43,309 nt of DNA from a virus: positions 1-43,309 of IMG/VR virus record IMGVR_UViG_3300028392_001847; one strand, 5' to 3'. A program made the translations under genes and the position numbers. Positions 27,182 to 40,561 of the stretch are shown here, piece by piece (within the stretch, counting starts at the first letter, position 1; every line of letters starts with the position of its first letter). Under the pieces are notes generated by a model, which searched no databases, was not told the DNA's origin, and saw only the letters and a program-made list of their open reading frames with translations.

Positions 27182-27481
27182 ATGTCCACTGATATTCAGA
27201 TCGAAGAGAAGATCAAAATTAAAGCTACAGAGCCAAAGCGTTGGAAAGTTATCTTATTGAATGACGACTCGACTCCTATGGAATTTGTAATATCGTTGTT
27301 GATCAGTATCTTTAAACATACTCATGAAACGTCCCAAGAAATTATGCTACAGGTTCATGAAACTGGCAGTGGTGTAGCTGGTCTATACAGTTTTGAAATT
27401 GCTGAAGCCAAGGCTGTTGAATCAACACAACAAGCTCGAACTGCAGGTTACCCACTACAAATTAAATTGGAGGAAGAATGA
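27182..27481 (+). CDS. clpS: ClpS adaptor (N-degron recognition)
   Basis: This 99-residue protein matches ClpS: KRWKVILLNDDSTPMEFVIS (the NDD-x-TPM segment that contacts the N-end residue), the LQVHETGSGVAGLY block with the conserved His, and YPLQIKLEEE at the end. ClpS delivers N-degron substrates to the ClpAP protease. A phage copy could redirect host proteolysis. The gene lies within the chaperone cluster and overlaps the heme oxygenase by ATGA. The N-terminal extension needed for ClpA contact is present (about 20 residues). Confidence 0.94.
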   Translation: MSTDIQIEEKIKIKATEPKRWKVILLNDDSTPMEFVISLLISIFKHTHETSQEIMLQVHETGSGVAGLYSFEIAEAKAVESTQQARTAGYPLQIKLEEE

Positions 27482-28029
27482 GCCTACGAGATTTAACTCA
27501 TGAAGCGCATAAAAATGCTGAGCGTCAAGAATTTGTAAAAATATTGTTTTCAGGTAATATTAATCCTAAACTCTATGCTACATTTTTAAAAAATCAGCAT
27601 CCACAGTATGAAATTTTAGAAGTATGCGCAATGATGCACGGGCTACTAAGTGATATGCCGGAGATTCGTCGAGCACCTGCAATACTTGACGATTTTATTG
27701 AACTATGGGGTTCTGACAGTAAAGAAATGCCAAATATGTGTCCCACTGTACAGAAGTACATGGATTACATCATGAGCATTAAAGATCAACCTGAACGATT
27801 AATGGCACATATCTATGTGCGCCACATGGGTGACCTAGCTGGCGGACAAATGATTGCCGCTAAGGTGCCCGGCAAAGGCAAAATGTATAAATTTAATAAT
27901 CCGGACGAACTTAAGGCAACTATTCGTTCAAAAATTAACGACAATATGGCAGACGAAGCAAAAGTGTGTTTTGAATTTGCTACAGAAATGTTTAAAGAAA
28001 TGCTAGAAATTGCCAATGACTTCAAGTAA
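27478..28029 (+). CDS. Heme oxygenase (biliverdin-forming)
   Basis: This 183-residue protein is a heme oxygenase. The proximal His is likely His11 in LTHEAHKNAE, matching H-xx-AE of the family. The distal helix signature appears as HIYVRHMGDLAGGQMI (about 111-126), matching the (Y/H)xRxLGDLSGGQ pattern. It cleaves heme to biliverdin IXa, CO and Fe(II) using reduced ferredoxin. The protein is shorter than plastid types but similar to phage and bacterial ones. It is coupled by ATGA to clpS and by a 14-nt overlap to the bilin reductase, so its product feeds the next enzyme. Confidence 0.93.
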   Translation: MSLRDLTHEAHKNAERQEFVKILFSGNINPKLYATFLKNQHPQYEILEVCAMMHGLLSDMPEIRRAPAILDDFIELWGSDSKEMPNMCPTVQKYMDYIMSIKDQPERLMAHIYVRHMGDLAGGQMIAAKVPGKGKMYKFNNPDELKATIRSKINDNMADEAKVCFEFATEMFKEMLEIANDFK

Positions 28030-28702
28030 AGTATGGGATACATTAATAGAAATTCAGCATCTATTGGAGAGCGAATTTGGCCGGACTGGGAGTGAAATTT
28101 TCGAGCCTGGAATGGATCGTTTTAACCAACCTGGTTGGGTTAATCGTGTATGGACTTCTGATCGCTATCGCCGTGCTCATATTGATGTGGTTGATGCGCG
28201 AGATTCTAAAGGACTCTGGATGATGCACTGTTGCATCTTCCCACATACGCATAATCCTGCGCCAATATTTGGGTTTGATGTAGTAGCTGGTAAGAACAAA
28301 ATGACTGGTTGCTTTCATGACTTTTCAAAAGCTGGCGATCCTGAACATCCGCTAATGGACTGGTTTGCAGACGAAGCACAAAAGCTAGAATGGAATAAAA
28401 CTCGAAAATTACCTGACTGGGCAGAACGTATTTTTAGCCCTAGCATGATTGCCGCTGGTAATGTTAGTGAAGAAGCAGAATTAGAGCAAATTTTTGCCAT
28501 GGCTAGGCACAATCTAGCGCATTATTTAGAATCAGTAGCTGAAACTAATAATACAGCTAACGATACTACAGCAGAACAAAATTACTACTGCGAAAATCAA
28601 AAGCAAAACCCACACACACCGCGTGTTATGATTAGTTTGGGACTAAGTGAGGAAGATGTACAAGTATTCATACAAGAATGCCTGTTCCCGGAACTAGCAT
28701 AA
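28016..28702 (+). CDS. pcyX: Ferredoxin-dependent bilin reductase (PcyX/PebS-like)
   Basis: This 228-residue protein belongs to the ferredoxin-dependent bilin reductase family. Landmarks are RRAHIDVVDARDSKGLWMMH, PAPIFGFDVVAGKNKMTGCF with the probable catalytic Asp in FGFD, HDFSK, WAERIFSPSMIAAGN, and the C-terminal block NPHTPRVMISLGLSEEDVQV ending FIQECLFPEL. It reduces biliverdin to a pink or blue bilin. Oceanic phage PcyX enzymes, found beside heme oxygenases, make phycoerythrobilin; this assignment is by resemblance, and PcyA- or PebS-type products remain possible. It overlaps the heme oxygenase by 14 nt. Reduced ferredoxin must come from elsewhere. Confidence 0.9.
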   Translation: MTSSKVWDTLIEIQHLLESEFGRTGSEIFEPGMDRFNQPGWVNRVWTSDRYRRAHIDVVDARDSKGLWMMHCCIFPHTHNPAPIFGFDVVAGKNKMTGCFHDFSKAGDPEHPLMDWFADEAQKLEWNKTRKLPDWAERIFSPSMIAAGNVSEEAELEQIFAMARHNLAHYLESVAETNNTANDTTAEQNYYCENQKQNPHTPRVMISLGLSEEDVQVFIQECLFPELA

Positions 28703-29957: not shown

Positions 29958-30731
29958 GTGGATCCTATCACCTTATTTGCGCTAGCAAACACAGCCGTTG
30001 CGGCTGTTAAGAAAGGGTGTCAATTATACAAGGACATCAAAGGTGCCGCGGGCGATGTAAAAGCTGTGCTCAAGGATCTTGACGAGCAGTTCAATAGCAA
30101 TCACAAAGACAAGCCTGCTACAGTTACGCAACGTAACGCCTACATAGAAGAAAAAAATCGGGTAATAGAATTAAACAAGAAGGGCGGCGAAACTGTGGGC
30201 ATCTATACAGAAATTGGCAACCACCTTGGTGCGTACTACGACAACCTAAACAAGTGCATGGCAATCTTTGCTGAAGAAGAACGCAGAAGTAAAACTGAAG
30301 TTTATACTGGAGATGATAGCTTAGGTAAACGTGCATTACAACGTGTGTTAATGAAAAAGCAGTTGGAACAAATGGGCACTGAACTGCGTGAGATCATGGT
30401 ATATCAGAGTCCACCAGAGTTGGGTGCGCTTTATACGGAAGTAGAAGAGATGATGAGGGTACTAGGCAAGGAACAAAAAGTTCTTATCGCCATACAAATG
30501 CAACGAGAAGCTGTTCAACAAAAAAGACGTGCGGCACGCATGAAACATCTTAGAGACGAATTTATAATAGGTGTAATAGTCGTTATAATAATATTTGCTG
30601 TGGGCGGAATGATGATGTGGGTGGCCTACGATCGTCAACAAAAGTATCCGCAATATGGTACTGGATTATTTCCTAAAAGTGAAAAGCAACGGCACCAAGA
30701 AGCAGAAACTCAGGTATATATAGGGCGCTAG
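29958..30731 (+). CDS. Coiled-coil protein with one membrane span, GTG start
   Basis: This 257-residue protein starts at GTG (M)DPITLFALANTAVAAVKKG. It is predominantly helical and highly charged, with an amphipathic N-terminus, long helices between about 60 and 205, and one membrane helix at about 207-230 (FIIGVIVVIIIFAVGGMMMW) near the C-terminus. The tail (about 27 residues) is polar. Virion or membrane-associated late functions are possible. The DPITxFA(L/M)A opening recurs from memory in marine T4-like phages without a function. The GGGAGCGAA leader motif before the start is repeated upstream of the gene at 42784. Confidence 0.75.
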   Translation: MDPITLFALANTAVAAVKKGCQLYKDIKGAAGDVKAVLKDLDEQFNSNHKDKPATVTQRNAYIEEKNRVIELNKKGGETVGIYTEIGNHLGAYYDNLNKCMAIFAEEERRSKTEVYTGDDSLGKRALQRVLMKKQLEQMGTELREIMVYQSPPELGALYTEVEEMMRVLGKEQKVLIAIQMQREAVQQKRRAARMKHLRDEFIIGVIVVIIIFAVGGMMMWVAYDRQQKYPQYGTGLFPKSEKQRHQEAETQVYIGR

Positions 30732-30821: not shown

Positions 30822-31202
30822 ATGGATGTAGAACAAATGAAGGAGCAGATGAGTGCCAACGCCAGCAAAGGCGCACTGATCGAAAAAGTAACATTTGCAG
30901 TATTGCCAATCATGTTTGCCTGTGTGGTGTACTTGATGAATGCGTTGAGTGCTGTTAATCACAACTTGACCATTCTTGAAAGCAAGATGCAGTTGGTGGT
31001 GACATCAGACAACAAGCAAGCACCAAACATGGGTGCTGAACTGGCCCGTGAAAAACTGCGCCAAGACTTCATGCAGGGCAATCAAGAAGCCATGGCCCGA
31101 AGCGGTGCCAACAAAGCAATCCTTGACACACTAGTATGGCGTGTTCAAGAGTTGGAAAAGCACAAAGACAAACAAATGTCCAGCAGTGGTGGGAAGAAGT
31201 AA
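30822..31202 (+). CDS. Membrane protein with C-terminal coiled coil
   Basis: This 126-residue protein starts MDVEQMKEQMSANASKGALI, has one membrane helix at about 25-43 (VTFAVLPIMFACVVYLMNAL), then a helical, charged remainder ending in a Lys/Ser/Gly tail. It is the reverse topology of the protein encoded at 3952. It has a strong late promoter and SD and follows another single-span coiled-coil protein, so the two may form a membrane complex. Function unknown; a spanin or holin partner is possible. Confidence 0.72.
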   Translation: MDVEQMKEQMSANASKGALIEKVTFAVLPIMFACVVYLMNALSAVNHNLTILESKMQLVVTSDNKQAPNMGAELAREKLRQDFMQGNQEAMARSGANKAILDTLVWRVQELEKHKDKQMSSSGGKK

Positions 31203-31236
31203 TATAATTGTAACTGTTTAACTCTTTCCTATTATA

Positions 31237-31242
31237 TAAATA
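31237..31242 (+). promoter_or_regulatory. Late promoter motif 7 nt before a start codon
   Basis: A full TATAAATA (31235-31242) with only 7 nt to the ATG at 31250, and no SD. Confidence 0.62.
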
Positions 31243-31249
31243 CTTAACT

Positions 31250-32083
31250 ATGAAAAAACTACTCACTTTATTATTTGTACTGGTTGCATTTGGAGCTACT
31301 CCGGCTCTGAGCCAAGCTCAATTGGCCACATCAACAGTACCACTACCCGCAGATATTGCCGCAATTAAGAAAGCTAATGTTCTTGTTGTGGCAATGACTA
31401 AAAAAGATGTTCCACCGTTTTTCAGCGGCGAAGGTGACAACTTACACGGTCTTGACGTTGAGATTGCTCAACGTATTGGTGTCTTACTTGGTGTTCCTGT
31501 CAAGTTCAGACGCGATGCAGAAAGTTTTGCAGAAGTTGTGGAACAGGTGCGTGACGGTCGTGCTGACATTGCTGTTAGCAAACTGTCAGTAACAGGTCCT
31601 AGACTACAAGTTGTTAGATTTAGCGATCCTTATGTTCGACTAAAACAAAGTTTGATTGTTAACCGTTTATGGCTGAGTCAAAACAGTCAAGGCAAAGAAA
31701 CATATCAAGTTATCAGAGATTTTAATGGCAAGATAAGTTTTGTCAAGAACTCCAGTTACGACACGTTTGCTCGTATTAATTTCCCCAATGCCACTTACCT
31801 TCCTGAAGAAAAGTGGGAAGTGATTATTGATAAAGTTACTCGTGGAGATATCGCTGCCGCTTATCGTGATGAATTTGAAATTAAGAAAATTTCGTTTGAG
31901 AAGCCCGATGCCGCGATCAGCACCAAGACCATTACAATCAGCGACAGTGTGGATTATATTGCCATAGCAGTGCATCCTAAAGCAATTCAATTATTAAGCG
32001 TTGTTAACTATGTTGTTAAAAATGAATACAGCGACATTAACACTAAAAAGTTAATGGAACGCTACAAAGCTGAAAAGAAATAA
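31250..32083 (+). CDS. Periplasmic amino-acid-binding protein (SBP family 3)
   Basis: This 277-residue protein has a signal peptide (MKKLLTLLFVLVAFGATPAL, cleavage near SQA-QL) and the type II periplasmic binding fold of polar amino-acid receptors: VLVVAMTKKDVPPFF, GLDVEIAQRIGVLLGVPVKF, VEQVRDGRADIAVSKLSVT and RFSDPYVRLKQSLIV. In such receptors the aspartate of GxADIA and a nearby Arg hold the amino acid; the Arg is not certain here. No ABC permease or ATPase gene follows; a sodium-type symporter starts 9 nt later instead. The leaderless-type late motif precedes it. It should bind an amino acid in the host periplasm. Confidence 0.9.
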   Translation: MKKLLTLLFVLVAFGATPALSQAQLATSTVPLPADIAAIKKANVLVVAMTKKDVPPFFSGEGDNLHGLDVEIAQRIGVLLGVPVKFRRDAESFAEVVEQVRDGRADIAVSKLSVTGPRLQVVRFSDPYVRLKQSLIVNRLWLSQNSQGKETYQVIRDFNGKISFVKNSSYDTFARINFPNATYLPEEKWEVIIDKVTRGDIAAAYRDEFEIKKISFEKPDAAISTKTITISDSVDYIAIAVHPKAIQLLSVVNYVVKNEYSDINTKKLMERYKAEKK

Positions 32084-32092
32084 GGATAAATC

Positions 32093-33385
32093 ATGATAAC
32101 AACATCACATTTAAAAAGTTTCCTGGTTAGTCCTTGGACTATTTTAGGATCAATCATCGTAGGTATAGTCTGTGGCGTGTATGCTCCTGCATTTAGTATT
32201 GGTCTCGACAGTATTGGCAGCATCTATATCAGCTTGCTCAAGGTAGTTGTACTGCCATTCTTGTTAGCAACTATTCTAGTTGGTATTATAGGACTACTAC
32301 AAAAAGAAGGTAGTGAGGCCCTGATACGCAAAATTATCATTGGCTTTGTGGGCAGTATGTTCTTGGCCGCAGTTATCGGAGTTGGCACTGTGCTGGTCAC
32401 AGGCACAGATATGACACCTGGAAAGAAAACAGAATTTGGTGTACTAGTTAACAATAAGGATACTGGCACTGAATTAAGCATTACCCTACACGAACCAATG
32501 ACAAAAGCGCCCGAAGTCAGCGCAGGTAAAATGGCTGAGAAGTTTATTCCTGAAAACATTTTTGCTACACTGAACAATGGTGAGAGTTTAAAGATTGTTA
32601 TTTTCTGTTTAATATTTGGTGTTGCCCTTGGACATTTGAAAACAGAAGGACAGCGCATGCTGGTAGAAGTTCTAAAGAGCATACAGCAGGCCAGCATCAG
32701 CATTTTTAAATTCTTAAACTACTTCTTACCTATTGCACTACTAGCAATGATTTCTGCGCAAGTTGGAAAAGTCGGAGTTGGTATATTCTTGACCATGTTT
32801 GACTTTGTGTTCCAACAGTTTGTTGGTGGACTATTAGTAATTGTGTTAGGCACCATTGTAATTTGGAAGCGTTCGGGATTAGATCTAATGACAGTGATCC
32901 GTGAAACTAAAGAAACATTAATTGTTGCTATTAGTTCACGCAGTTCGTTAGCCTGTATTCCATACGCACAAGAAGCCTTACACAAACTACATTTTGACAA
33001 GGGCGGAGTTGAACTAACTGTTCCACTAAGTTTTACAGTTAATCGTATTGGCAGTATTGTTTACTATGCTATTGCCACAGTATTCATTGCCAACATCTAT
33101 GATGCTCCATTAGGTTTTACTGGCTTATTTGTTGTGCTGTTTGGCAGTATCCTAGCTGGCTTGGCATCAGCAGGTACAACAGGTATCTTAACTGTGGCAA
33201 CAGTTGCAGTGGTATGTGACTTGTTAAAACTACCCAGCGAAGCGGTGTTGGTGTTGTTGATTGCAGTAGATCCCTTAATGGACATGATTCGCACAGCAAG
33301 TCATGTACATGGTAATGTAGCAGTAACAGCATTTGTCTGCGATAAGGAACATTCAGATGGACAAGCTGAAAGAGTTCCTACTTAG
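32093..33385 (+). CDS. Dicarboxylate/amino-acid:cation symporter (DAACS family)
   Basis: This 430-residue protein is a full-length GltP/DctA-type transporter with about eight membrane helices and two hairpins. HP1 appears as ISSRSSLACIPYAQ (about 281-294), HP2 as AGLASAGTTGILT (about 357-369), and TM8 as AVDPLMDMIRTASHVHGN (about 392-409). The TM8 Asp and Arg that hold acidic substrates in GltPh are kept, but the TM7 NMDGT motif reads NRIGS and the TM8 Asn is His, so ion coupling or substrate may differ. It should import an amino or dicarboxylic acid across the host inner membrane. It follows the binding protein by 9 nt with an AAGGATAA SD. Confidence 0.92.
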   Translation: MITTSHLKSFLVSPWTILGSIIVGIVCGVYAPAFSIGLDSIGSIYISLLKVVVLPFLLATILVGIIGLLQKEGSEALIRKIIIGFVGSMFLAAVIGVGTVLVTGTDMTPGKKTEFGVLVNNKDTGTELSITLHEPMTKAPEVSAGKMAEKFIPENIFATLNNGESLKIVIFCLIFGVALGHLKTEGQRMLVEVLKSIQQASISIFKFLNYFLPIALLAMISAQVGKVGVGIFLTMFDFVFQQFVGGLLVIVLGTIVIWKRSGLDLMTVIRETKETLIVAISSRSSLACIPYAQEALHKLHFDKGGVELTVPLSFTVNRIGSIVYYAIATVFIANIYDAPLGFTGLFVVLFGSILAGLASAGTTGILTVATVAVVCDLLKLPSEAVLVLLIAVDPLMDMIRTASHVHGNVAVTAFVCDKEHSDGQAERVPT

Positions 33386-33971
33386 TTTACTAACCTGGAT
33401 CGGTGAAAGCCCATTCAGGTTGTTCACAGTAATACTGCTGTGCTTGCTAACATTCATTGGATGGGTTGCATACACGGAAAAAGATGCGTTCATGGCCAGC
33501 TATCGTGCCCAACAATCACTGCCACGCATGAACGGCGAGTATGAAAAAGCCGCTAACTTTATACTTAAAAACAGCCAAGCAGAACTGATAGCTATATTTG
33601 AAGTTAATACTTTGTTAAACACTAGAAAATTAGTATACTTTGTTACACGCAAAGGCGGTCAAGACAAAACCATGTATGGCACCGATGTTGGTTTGCTAAC
33701 TAAAAATTACGACAACAACAACGATGTGATTTCCATGATGTCGGGTAAGATACCTTGCCAAACTTATGAAAAACCTCAGAGTCTAATGGGTTTCATCTAT
33801 GTTGAGAAAGGTGTCAAGTGGATGTGTCGTATTAGTGTTCCAGCTGAGCCTGGCATATTTATTGGACAGATATCCGTAGGCTGGACAGAAGTTCCTGCTG
33901 ATAAACAACCTGTCGACACACAACAAACAGTAATGACTGTGGCCAGCGGTCTATTGTATAATAAAAAATGA
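33357..33971 (+). CDS. Membrane-anchored protein of unknown function
   Basis: This 204-residue protein starts MDKLKEFLLSLLTWIGESPF and has one N-terminal membrane helix (about 21-40, FRLFTVILLCLLTFIGWVAY), followed by a soluble, probably periplasmic domain of about 160 residues with two Cys residues (IPCQTYE, WMCRIS) that could form a disulfide. It overlaps the symporter gene by 29 nt, so it is likely part of the same transport module. A transporter partner or regulator is possible; family not recognised. Confidence 0.75.
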   Translation: MDKLKEFLLSLLTWIGESPFRLFTVILLCLLTFIGWVAYTEKDAFMASYRAQQSLPRMNGEYEKAANFILKNSQAELIAIFEVNTLLNTRKLVYFVTRKGGQDKTMYGTDVGLLTKNYDNNNDVISMMSGKIPCQTYEKPQSLMGFIYVEKGVKWMCRISVPAEPGIFIGQISVGWTEVPADKQPVDTQQTVMTVASGLLYNKK

Positions 33972-34033
33972 GACTTCCTTCTGTCATAGCTGGTTTTATT
34001 CTAATTGTTATCTTATTGATTGCATTATTATGA
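33968..34033 (+). CDS. Tiny membrane peptide (21 aa)
   Basis: MRLPSVIAGFILIVILLIAL ends in one more Leu and a TGA. It overlaps the preceding stop (ATGA) and the next gene's start (ATGA), exactly bridging two genes. Almost the whole peptide is one membrane helix. It may be a small transporter subunit or only a coupling frame; no SD is obvious. Confidence 0.45.
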   Translation: MRLPSVIAGFILIVILLIALL

Positions 34034-34719
34034 AACGCTTAGGAGTTCTTGGTGGTATGGGGCCAGCGGCAGGTGCAGAATTCCTAGTTCGCCTTACTCA
34101 TCAAACTCCAGCCGCCTGCGACCAAGAACATATTCCAGTGATACTATGGAGCGATCCAACTGTACCCGACCGTAGTACCAGCTTGCTCAACAAAGATGAC
34201 TTGCCTTGGGAAAAACTTAAACAGGGAGTACAAGGTTTAAAAGCCGCAGGATGTGATCACATTGTTATTCCTTGTAACACAGCACATTTTTGGTATGAAA
34301 GGCTAGTGGAACTGGGTGTTCCGATTACACACATAGTAGACAGTGTAGCAGATGAATTACGTGCGCAAGATATCTCTGGCACTATTGGAATACTTGGTAC
34401 ACGAGCTACAATGAAGTTAGGCTTGTATAGTGATAGATTAAATGCGGCAGGTTGGCAGTGCATAATGCCCACAAGCAAAGAAATGGAAGACTATGTACAA
34501 CCAGGAATCGATCTAATCAAAGCCAACAAGCCCATTTCAGCCAACGGCATGTTGATGACTGCGGTTCGTTCACTAATTAAACGTGGTGCCAATGCTGTTG
34601 TGCTAGGATGTACTGAAATTCCGCTGGTGATACGAGAATATCATTGCCAAGAAATTCCGTTAATAAATAGTATTGACAGCTTGGTAAAAGCATCAATTAA
34701 TAAATTCAAAAGGAATTAA
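34030..34719 (+). CDS. Aspartate/glutamate racemase family protein
   Basis: This 229-residue protein matches the PLP-independent Asp/Glu racemase family: KRLGVLGGMGPAAGAEFL (1-20), first catalytic Cys in VIPCNTAHFW (about 82), second in VLGCTEIPLV (about 199). These enzymes interconvert L- and D-aspartate or related acids by a two-cysteine mechanism. Both cysteines and the (N)TAH context are intact. Placement behind a binding protein and an acidic-amino-acid-type symporter suggests handling of imported Asp/Glu or supply of D-Asp/D-Glu. Amino-acid racemase YgeA-like enzymes with broader substrates are an alternative. Confidence 0.92.
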   Translation: MKRLGVLGGMGPAAGAEFLVRLTHQTPAACDQEHIPVILWSDPTVPDRSTSLLNKDDLPWEKLKQGVQGLKAAGCDHIVIPCNTAHFWYERLVELGVPITHIVDSVADELRAQDISGTIGILGTRATMKLGLYSDRLNAAGWQCIMPTSKEMEDYVQPGIDLIKANKPISANGMLMTAVRSLIKRGANAVVLGCTEIPLVIREYHCQEIPLINSIDSLVKASINKFKRN

Positions 34720-34720
34720 C

Positions 34721-34861
34721 ATGACAAGAACATTATGCGCAGTTATTTTAGCAGTATTTGCTTATGGATGTGCTACAGCAATCAGTGCTTCAGAAAGAGA
34801 AGTAAGTGCTAGAGAAGATGCTAGGGAAGCAGCCTTATGGAAGGTAATGGCTGGCAAGTAA
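34721..34861 (+). CDS. Small exported protein, possible lipoprotein (46 aa)
   Basis: MTRTLCAVILAVFAYGCATA then ISASEREVSA and a charged helical tail ending WKVMAGK. A basic start, hydrophobic core and AYGC|A give a signal peptide with an imperfect lipobox; cleavage at ATA or ISA is the alternative. An AAAAGGAATT SD precedes the ATG, one base after the racemase stop. Its size and charge resemble small entericidin-like or Lpp-like envelope peptides. Function unknown. Confidence 0.65.
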   Translation: MTRTLCAVILAVFAYGCATAISASEREVSAREDAREAALWKVMAGK

Positions 34862-38419: not shown

Positions 38420-39055
38420 ATGAAACCCACAATTGCTCTTTTCCTGTATGATCCTAAATGTAGCGTACAGTCGGGCAATGGAGTCATTCACGCATTACAA
38501 GACTATTACAATTTTAAAATTTTCAGCATTAACGAACTGGAAGACACCTTCTTTGACGATGTAGATATCGTAGCTGTGCCAGGCGGATTCGGAGATGCTG
38601 GATCATTTGATCGAGCATTTAAACACAACAAACAACGTATTAAAAACTTTGTCCGTGACGGCGGCAAATACTTGGGTATTTGTATGGGTGCTTACTGGGC
38701 TGGCAAGCACTACTTTGATATATTAAATAATGTAGATGCTGTACAGTATATAACACGACCAAATACAGACACAAGGAGACCACATGCTAAAGATATCAAA
38801 ATTAAATGGAATAACCTTGATACAACAATGTTTTTTTACGATGGTTGTGCTTTGGTTGGTAACGGTCAGTACGATCGAATCTCTACATACGCGAATGGCG
38901 ATTCAATGGCAATCATTCAGGAAAACATAGGATTAATAGGTGCCCATCCAGAGGCTGAACCTTTCTGGTATGACGGTTATACTTGGATGCGGGGAAAATA
39001 TGCCAGCAAGCATGATTTACTTTTAGACTTTGTTGACCAGCTAAATAGTGTATGA
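38420..39055 (+). CDS. Glutamine-amidotransferase-like protein (BPL_N type)
   Basis: This 211-residue class I amidotransferase-fold protein has VDIVAVPGGFGDAGSFDRAF (about 48-67), the nucleophile elbow KYLGICMGAYWAG (Cys near 90) and a late IGAHPEAEPFWYDGY with His. The order matches the BPL_N family, fused in some organisms to biotin-protein ligase, whose role is unclear. A glutamine-hydrolysing partner subunit is absent, so it may be a hydrolase or peptidase-like enzyme on an unknown substrate. It overlaps the GH19-like gene by ATGA. Confidence 0.8.
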   Translation: MKPTIALFLYDPKCSVQSGNGVIHALQDYYNFKIFSINELEDTFFDDVDIVAVPGGFGDAGSFDRAFKHNKQRIKNFVRDGGKYLGICMGAYWAGKHYFDILNNVDAVQYITRPNTDTRRPHAKDIKIKWNNLDTTMFFYDGCALVGNGQYDRISTYANGDSMAIIQENIGLIGAHPEAEPFWYDGYTWMRGKYASKHDLLLDFVDQLNSV

Positions 39056-39843
39056 GACTAAAAGAATTTGCGTCTATGACGTCACTATCAATAGATACAC
39101 CTACTCCCGCACTTGCACAAGATCCGTTAGGCAGTATATTAGAACGAACAGCCAAAGCCGCAGGTATAATGGGAGTAGAATTAGCACAGTTGTTAGGCCA
39201 GTGTCACGTAGAGACTATAGGATATCAAACTCTTAAAGAATTGCCAAACAAGTGGCAAAAACATTATGAGCCGCCTAGCAAGACAGCTTCTATGCTAGGT
39301 AATACTGAACGAGGTGATGGACAAAAATTCTTAGGGCGTGGGTTTATTCAGGTAACCGGTCGGTATAACTATCAACAGTTTGCACAGAATTCAGGTATAG
39401 ATGTAGTAAGCCATCCCGAGTTATTAGAAAAACCAGATACAGCGGCTAAGGCTACTGTAGATTTTTGGTTAAATCGTATACGTCCAAATGTAAAAGATTT
39501 TACAAAAACTGATCAAGTAACCAAGATTATTAATCATGCTAAGAAGCATGCTAGCGAACGTAAATCAGCATTTACTCAATATGCTAGTAAATTACCAGAT
39601 AAATTGCGCCCGGATACAAAATTAGCACAGTCAACTACTAAACAGCAGGGCCAAGGGGCAAATCCAGCACCTAAGCAAAAACTAACAAATCCAGTGCCGA
39701 CTAAACCAACAGCACCAACTAAACCAATACTGCCTCAAGATTTAGCAAAAGTACAACAGCAGGCAATCAAATCAATGCCTGCACTACAAACAGGTGGCGA
39801 TGGCCTAGATGCTATGTTGAAACTCAAAGGGTTAAGTAACTAA
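39052..39843 (+). CDS. GH19-like peptidoglycan hydrolase with Pro-rich tail
   Basis: This 263-residue protein has a GH19/lysozyme-like domain at about 25-165: ELAQLLGQCHVETIGYQTLK with the first catalytic Glu, then GDGQKFLGRGFIQVTGRYNY, the classic F-x-GRG-x(I/L)-QxTGR motif, and a following helical part. Residues about 195-240 are Gln/Pro/Thr/Lys-rich, and the C-terminus is a short helix. GH19 enzymes cleave chitin or peptidoglycan glycans; in phages they act at entry or lysis. The opening MRLKEFAS resembles N-termini of internal phage proteins, so it may be virion-associated. It ends tail-to-tail with the desaturase gene, one base apart, without a clear terminator. Confidence 0.85.
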   Translation: MRLKEFASMTSLSIDTPTPALAQDPLGSILERTAKAAGIMGVELAQLLGQCHVETIGYQTLKELPNKWQKHYEPPSKTASMLGNTERGDGQKFLGRGFIQVTGRYNYQQFAQNSGIDVVSHPELLEKPDTAAKATVDFWLNRIRPNVKDFTKTDQVTKIINHAKKHASERKSAFTQYASKLPDKLRPDTKLAQSTTKQQGQGANPAPKQKLTNPVPTKPTAPTKPILPQDLAKVQQQAIKSMPALQTGGDGLDAMLKLKGLSN

Positions 39844-39844
39844 T

Positions 39845-40561
39845 TTATATTAGATCGGTTCTTACGATACTAGCAAGTCCTAGTAGGCTAAACACTCTTA
39901 GCCATGCATATCCTAAGTCAAACTCAAACCACTTGCGACTAAGTTTAACACTAGCCGGCGACAAGTGATGATTATTATGCAGTTCCTCACCGCCAACCAC
40001 AATTCCCCATGGAACTAAATTAGTACTCTTATCACGAGACTCACCATTGCGATATCCTAGCCAATGACCTAGCCCGTTGATAACTCCGGCGGCCCAGAAA
40101 GGGATCCATATCATTTGTACACCCCACACTACTAGGCCCCACGGTCCAAAGAACAGGCAGTCTATGACCAGCATTAGAAGAATACCGAGGCGGCTATGGG
40201 GTGTATAAATGACACGTTCTATCCAATCGTCAGGAGTACCTACTCCAAACTTGTTGATCATGTCTTTGTCTTTGCTGGCATCATGATACAGGCCTGCACC
40301 TTTAAAGAACACACGAGTAATGCCATAAACATGCGGCGAGTGCGGATCGCCTTCTTTATCGCTAAATGCGTGATGTTTACGATGTATTGCCACCCATTGT
40401 TTAGTGACCATCCCAGTTGTTAGCCATAACCAGCTTCGCATGAAATGTTCTAGCACTGGATGGAATTTTATTCCTCTATGAGCTTGGCCTCGATGCAAAA
40501 ACAAAGTCACACATACTATCGTGATATGTGTGACTACCAGAGTGTATAAAATTATATCCAT
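39845..40561 (-). CDS. Fatty-acid desaturase (delta-9 acyl-CoA/acyl-lipid type)
   Basis: This 238-residue membrane protein has the three His boxes of the membrane diiron desaturases: HRGQAH (23-28), HRKHH (60-64) and HNNHH (near 195), between hydrophobic segments at about 5-22, 38-55, 125-150 and 155-170. The spacing fits the delta-9-type front-end-free desaturases. It would introduce a double bond into host acyl chains, raising membrane fluidity. It is shorter than many bacterial homologues (about 280-300). Its position next to the lipid genes plcP and agt (opposite strand) suggests coordinated membrane remodelling. It needs an electron donor such as ferredoxin. Confidence 0.92.
   Translation of the reverse strand: MDIILYTLVVTHITIVCVTLFLHRGQAHRGIKFHPVLEHFMRSWLWLTTGMVTKQWVAIHRKHHAFSDKEGDPHSPHVYGITRVFFKGAGLYHDASKDKDMINKFGVGTPDDWIERVIYTPHSRLGILLMLVIDCLFFGPWGLVVWGVQMIWIPFWAAGVINGLGHWLGYRNGESRDKSTNLVPWGIVVGGEELHNNHHLSPASVKLSRKWFEFDLGYAWLRVFSLLGLASIVRTDLI

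Follow-up and report, generated by a model that had tools for sequence, protein, structure and literature searches.

A predicted late operon of phages may couple an amino-acid receptor and its partner transporter to a relative of T4 holin T

Why would a phage place a receptor for small molecules and a secondary transporter in front of a membrane-anchored protein, with a racemase and small peptides behind? The question is raised by positions 31250..34861 of IMG/VR virus record IMGVR_UViG_3300028392_001847, the whole of which, 43,309 bases, was analysed and is called the window here. A reading made from the letters alone, the sequence-only reading, had found six genes there, and all six are confirmed in that order, all on the plus strand: a solute-binding protein (SBP), a transporter of the SDF family (SDF), a membrane-anchored protein (MEM), a peptide of 21 residues, a putative racemase (RAC) and a peptide of 46 residues (s46). 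The block had been taken as a means of acquiring and converting acidic amino acids. The answer to which we lean, tentatively and with a probability of about 0.4, is a late operon that couples SBP and its partner SDF to a MEM resembling the holin T of phage T4, with lysis probably tuned by acidic amino acids in the periplasm.

Conservation of the cassette among phages

Searches of IMG/VR returned 34 SDF loci, 67 SBP loci, 56 MEM loci and 23 racemase loci, many of them on contigs of 100-525 kb. After removal of copies, all 60 testable phage loci have SBP immediately before SDF, and all 54 that allow the second test have MEM immediately after it, usually with overlapping reading frames; the sequence-only reading had proposed looking for this order in other viral contigs, and there it was found, not scattered. 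These counts rule out chance adjacency of the three genes. The genes flanking the trio vary between contigs while its internal order is constant. The six-gene block is real, and SBP-SDF-MEM is a cassette conserved in IMG/VR among large freshwater phages, in which RAC, the 21-residue peptide and s46 are common but optional members. In the window, the spacing is a gap of 9 nucleotides (nt) between SBP and SDF, an overlap of 29 nt between SDF and MEM, overlaps of 4 nt between MEM and the 21-residue peptide and between that peptide and RAC, and a gap of 1 nt between RAC and s46; ribosome-binding sites were found ahead of SDF, MEM (at 33357) and s46.

Mirror-tree comparison gave a rho of 0.94 for SBP with SDF, 0.77 for SDF with MEM and about 0.3 for RAC with the other genes. 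Comparison of the sequences points to cassette alleles that recombine while the order of genes stays, and to strong purifying selection on SBP, SDF and MEM; median ratios of nonsynonymous to synonymous substitution (dN/dS) are 0.085, 0.066 and 0.073 for these three, and 0.176 for the racemase. In the large records each SBP-SDF block comes with a single MEM, and two of these records have an additional, more distant relative of MEM. In one record (G002, IMGVR_UViG_3300027749_002876, 524,565 bases; G and L numbers are our labels for genomes and loci) there are two complete SBP-SDF-MEM blocks, which may have arisen by true duplication or by the joining of two phages in assembly.

The ABC permease family PF00528 was not found in any of ten large phage records, which bears out the remark that the receptor comes without such a permease and disposes of a permease hidden elsewhere in those records as the partner of SBP. 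Database matches to SDF, RAC and SBP that carry the label of phage proved to be mostly bacterial contamination and were set aside.

Relationship of MEM to holin T

MEM (33357..33971), of 204 residues, had been described simply as a membrane-anchored protein. The anchor, a single N-terminal helix, stands; what the description missed is the relationship to T4 holin T, a sign that more than nutrition is at stake and that lysis may be controlled. The start codon was set at ATG 33357 and not at the alternative TTG 33333, because an AAGGA ribosome site precedes the ATG. In family scans the sole match of MEM is an unnamed PHROG, and the Pfam holin models gave no match, individual members of the family falling short of PF11031. 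When the MEM family was compared by hhalign with T holins of the T4/T5 type, gathered with a T4 T query verified against the T4 record (100%), 164 columns were aligned, the membrane helix included, with probabilities of 86-93% and P values from 3e-7 to 5e-6 (93% and 3e-7 in the best run). Controls made of reversed sequences and unrelated decoys gave P values of 0.027 or worse.

The AlphaFold model of MEM (predicted local distance difference test score, pLDDT, 89) has a helical membrane anchor at the N terminus, followed by a GAF-like domain. The periplasmic domain of T4 T (6psk, 6px4, 6pxe) is among its top solved matches in Foldseek, at probability 1.00, with an E value of 1e-4 for 6psk_T and a template-modelling score (target) of 0.68 for 6px4_B, and the viral matches include annotated phage holins. 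Two cysteines are invariant across the MEM family, a pair that fits a periplasmic domain; the receptor-like domain of MEM should lie in the periplasm.

Genes of the MEM family adjoin those for endolysins, three-transmembrane (3TM) holins and spanins. At L150 the gene order is Rz1-like/spanin, GH19 endolysin, MEM and 3TM holin, and among the 29 loci of the family members designated MEM2, 17 have a holin or endolysin gene no more than 3 kb away. By sequence profile, predicted fold and gene context, MEM appears to be a relative of T4 holin T. It shares with this class III holin (PF11031) the one N-terminal membrane helix, a C-terminal domain of the same fold, the conserved cysteine pair, family members placed in lysis cassettes and a gene that is late. 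It differs in that identity is 18%, under Pfam detection, that its operon is headed by an amino-acid receptor and transporter, and that the six-gene block, in contrast to the T/RI lysis-inhibition pair of T4, holds no homologue of RI and no RI-like gene to serve as an antiholin partner.

In 23 of the 29 MEM2 loci (L181-L227; for example L205:6612-6887), an exported protein of about 91 residues with two invariant cysteines is encoded in translational coupling with MEM2. This partner is a candidate antiholin; as an antiholin of the RI type it was rejected, since hhalign found no similarity to T4 RI (0.2%).

Late transcription of the block

The motif TATAAATA, the late-promoter element of T4, lies at 31235..31242 on the plus strand, with its first base 15 nt before the start of SBP, and was missed by the sequence-only reading. 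In 46 of 62 phage loci the pattern [TC]ATAAATA stands no more than 80 nt ahead of SBP, and in 30 of those 46 it stands 13-16 nt ahead; the exact TATAAATA is found upstream of SBP in 31 of the 62, and upstream of SDF, MEM or RAC in none of the loci. With SBP regions masked, the two late-promoter motifs precede gene starts in 40-42% of their occurrences, against 10% for a permuted-motif control, and a gp55-like sigma factor is encoded in nine of ten large records (E values from 4e-8 to 4e-5). Because the motif stands before SBP only, is enriched at gene starts and is accompanied by a gp55-like sigma factor, the block appears to be one late operon, transcribed from a late promoter of the T4 type. 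The case for the promoter rests on its conserved position, since TATAAATA is not over-represented across the window (3 found, 4.0 expected).

The receptor and the transporter

SBP (31250..32083) encodes an exported family 3 solute-binding protein of 277 residues with a signal peptide, and SDF (32093..33385) a membrane transporter of 430 residues with the SDF/DAACS fold, one of a receptor-linked subfamily in which NMDG has become NRIG. The family assignments made from the letters hold for both (PF00497, SBP_bac_3, E value 4e-17; PF00375, E value 8e-66), as for the racemase described below. The model of SBP (pLDDT 89) matches amino-acid-binding proteins of the PDB with E values of about 1e-19, and the profile, the fold and the ligand Arg and Asp all place it among the amino-acid receptors of family 3. 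Those two residues, the alpha-carboxylate Arg118 and the amine-type Asp207, are invariant in 19 relatives and are expected to hold an amino acid.

SDF aligns to PF00375 over residues 15-415 and has the full-length fold, with SRSS in hairpin 1 (HP1), of DAACS/SLC1 transporters (GltPh, GltP, DctA). It also has the substrate residues D-x-x-x-D-x-x-R-T of acidic amino-acid transporters in transmembrane helix 8 (TM8), where DMIRT, invariant in phage SDFs, corresponds to the D394 and R397 contacts (GltPh numbering here and below), as in GltP. The substrate contacts of acidic amino-acid transporters are thus kept, and to this extent the earlier proposal of acidic amino-acid uptake and conversion stands, although its emphasis on nutrient supply has shifted towards lysis control. 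The subfamily departs from other DAACS/SLC1 transporters in always adjoining an SBP and in its sodium site: NMD is replaced by NRI, D405 by N, N401 by H and T92/S93 in TM3 by S/M, and D312 also is changed; NRIG, D405N and the S/M pair are invariant or nearly so in phages. The NMD motif has been described as the nexus at which sodium and substrate are bound, and D405N, which SDF shares with H+-coupled DAACS members, as a mark of the proton-coupled members of the family (PMC12668577). Because the sodium-site residues are lost, SDF is not to be called a sodium symporter.

Variation in NMDG is not unusual by itself, as YdjN and an enterococcal SDF differ too; the arginine in the motif is the mark of the SBP-linked set, present in all phage members and in 10 of 11 aligned bacterial members, where it replaces the Met or Leu of NMDG or NLDG. 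Like TRAP and TTT transporters, the pair joins a receptor to a secondary transporter with no ATPase, but the membrane proteins are unrelated, the partner here having the SDF fold. Independently of the lysis model, this receptor-linked subfamily matters in its own right, with an arginine-bearing motif replacing the sodium motif and phage versions that are short and easily expressed.

Bacterial SBP-SDF systems

A receptor paired with a secondary symporter had been called unusual, and rare it is, but it is not unique to phages. At E values up to 1e-40, relatives of SDF were found in 8 of 398 sampled Pseudomonadota genomes, and a class-level sample gave one more; an SBP gene adjoins the SDF gene in nine of nine testable bacterial loci, although linkage was not a search criterion. 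None of the curated NCBIfam models claims these SBP-linked SDFs. The pair is a rare and apparently undescribed bacterial system for transport or sensing. The loci often have a second SDF gene, seen in L243 (G067), L241 (G325) and L242 (G666), and the two SDFs may form a hetero-oligomer.

In the tree, bacterial SBP-linked and phage SDFs, which had been chosen for their similarity to the phage profile, stand apart from canonical SDFs (100/100). A close copy from Burkholderiales groups with L039 within the phage clade (support 89/98), which suggests transfer of this SBP-SDF copy from phage to bacterium; direct derivation of the phage SDF from that copy is ruled out by the same placement. The Burkholderiales metagenome-assembled genome (G001, contig 29) also contains a second, divergent SBP-SDF-SDF cluster followed by an MscS-like gene with a cNMP domain (L240, 4883-8471). 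Type VI secretion genes of the VgrG/PAAR-like kind lie immediately upstream of this cluster, and the pair derived from phage is a few kb away.

Racemase, small peptides and envelope neighbours

RAC (34030..34719) encodes a putative Asp/Glu-type racemase of 229 residues (PF01177, E value 6e-39) with both catalytic cysteine motifs, PCNTAH and GCTE. It lies above two curated NCBIfam cut-offs, scoring 221.8 bits for the cysteate racemase CuyB (cut-off 190) and 151.5 bits for TIGR00035 (cut-off 93.1), and matches aspartate racemases of the PDB with an E value of 6e-43. It differs from these enzymes in being phage-borne and optional in its cassette. In most loci it directly follows MEM; elsewhere it is 1-2 kb off or absent. 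The family had been recognized correctly, but RAC, treated as part of the block, is its loosest member, exchanged independently.

The 21-residue single-span membrane peptide (33968..34033), translationally coupled, is genuine and not a chance reading frame: MRLP[ST]VI... recurs in 19 phage loci, each time in this place and with the overlap of 4 nt. The product of s46 (34721..34861) is an exported, possibly lipidated peptide with homologues downstream of RAC or MEM in nine other phage loci; in these, a Cys closes the hydrophobic stretch and the motif S-A-[KR]-E-D-A-R is conserved. A GATase-like gene directly follows s46 in L093, L133 and L148. In the window, such a gene overlaps and precedes a GH19 endolysin gene (38420-39843).

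Receptor control of lysis and its alternatives

Coupling of SBP and SDF to MEM might work as follows. SBP, loaded or empty, would act directly or by way of SDF on the periplasmic domain of MEM, as RI does on T4 T, and lysis would be delayed or released by periplasmic Asp, Glu or cysteate, such as might spill from lysing neighbours. SDF and RAC would clear or convert the ligand and thereby reset the signal, and the 21- and 46-residue peptides would be small envelope partners. Such gating of MEM is suggested by analogy, with precedent for each step and not for the combination. T4 holin T is inhibited by its periplasmic partner RI, which occupies the site of T self-association (PMC11413866), and in Corynebacterium a membrane protein relies on GlnH, a periplasmic SBP, to sense Asp/Glu (PMC9769921). 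The GlnH-GlnX-PknG system shares with the proposed mechanism a periplasmic SBP whose binding of Asp/Glu is signalled by way of a membrane protein; it differs in that the block has neither GlnX nor a kinase and that the proposed output is lysis. A bolder form of the proposal, that large freshwater phages time lysis by a nutrient sensor in which SBP and an ion-decoupled SDF transceptor signal across the periplasm to a T4-type holin, with lysis inhibition set by acidic amino acids freed in the surroundings of the cell, is possible but less likely than not.

Several observations weigh against control of lysis by this block. Most large records here, unlike T4, carry a 3TM holin of the TeaA type near a GH19 gene at a separate locus (TeaA is PF11351; PMC7182436). 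Because of that locus, the idea that the block is the main, or core, cassette for lysis was rejected for most large records; endolysin genes near the block are not clearly commoner than chance. Since the 3TM holin is present as well, MEM might form the pore or might serve as a regulator instead. GAF domains score as high as T4 T in the Foldseek search with MEM. The strongest counter-evidence is that each half is found by itself and that SBP-SDF could be accounted for by transport alone: L150 and L141 have a block-type MEM with no SBP-SDF beside it, and the Burkholderiales genome has a phage-like SBP-SDF but no MEM.

Late amino-acid uptake with a co-transcribed holin is a serious rival, and a possible one, if short of probable: SBP-SDF would import an acidic amino acid and RAC would convert its mirror form, feeding virion synthesis, while MEM would merely be a lysis gene in the same transcript. 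That SBP-SDF forms a stand-alone two-gene system in bacteria, that the DMIRT substrate residues are those of GltP and that the Burkholderiales copy nested in the phage clade does without MEM all accord with import. So do known phage-borne nutrient receptors such as cyanophage PstS, likewise an SBP encoded without its ABC permease, although SBP here, unlike PstS, is accompanied by a secondary transporter of its own and by a gene of the lysis type. Import explains less well why the cassette stays intact in changing genomic surroundings despite recombining alleles, or why it is transcribed late, when import for synthesis pays least; and since a separate holin/endolysin locus exists, MEM is not needed in the block as the only holin.

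Should the resemblance to T reflect only a shared GAF-like fold, MEM would be a membrane-anchored GAF-like sensor, or an accessory subunit of SBP-SDF, with no role in lysis. The equal Foldseek scores, the lack of a Pfam holin match and translational coupling to SDF agree with this, but we think it unlikely, as the profile similarity to T takes in the membrane helix along with the domain, MEM-family members without SBP-SDF occur in lysis cassettes, and bacterial SBP-SDF systems lack MEM. Remodelling of the envelope, in which RAC, the amidotransferase-like neighbour and the transporter supply or remove D-Glu or D-Asp and so change peptidoglycan before lysis, draws on the Asp/Glu racemase superfamily of RAC and on the GATase-like genes after s46 and before the endolysin, but is very improbable, RAC being optional and closer to cysteate/aspartate racemases than to MurI, and the amidotransferase match being weak (GatD, E value 1e-3).

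Searches of the open literature found nothing on phage operons that join a receptor to a symporter, or on holins set by nutrients; lysis modules of the T type and SBP-dependent secondary transport are each known, and it is their combination that seems new. Known lysis-inhibition signals come from other phages, through superinfection, with periplasmic phage DNA proposed as the cue for T4 RI. If control of lysis through SBP, SDF and MEM is correct, the coupling of a small-metabolite receptor with a T-type holin would add a new class of input to lysis inhibition, and whether phages read the nutrient state of their neighbourhood before bursting the host would become testable.

Other features of the window

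Two genes upstream of the block, both on the plus strand, encode membrane proteins with a link to the MEM family by association only. The nearer (30822..31202), a membrane/coiled-coil protein, has a look-alike just upstream of the MEM relative in L181; the farther (29958..30731) belongs to phrog_32327, the same PHROG that holds the protein adjoining the MEM relative in L221. On the opposite strand to the block, a DesA-like fatty-acid desaturase gene (39845-40561, minus strand) is shorter than the model of its family, with 238 of about 385 residues. At 27478-28702, a heme oxygenase gene (PF01126) is followed directly by one for a ferredoxin-dependent bilin reductase (PF05996), the two making up a bilin pathway of the phage, next to genes for DnaK (24737), Hsp20 (26690) and ClpS (27182).

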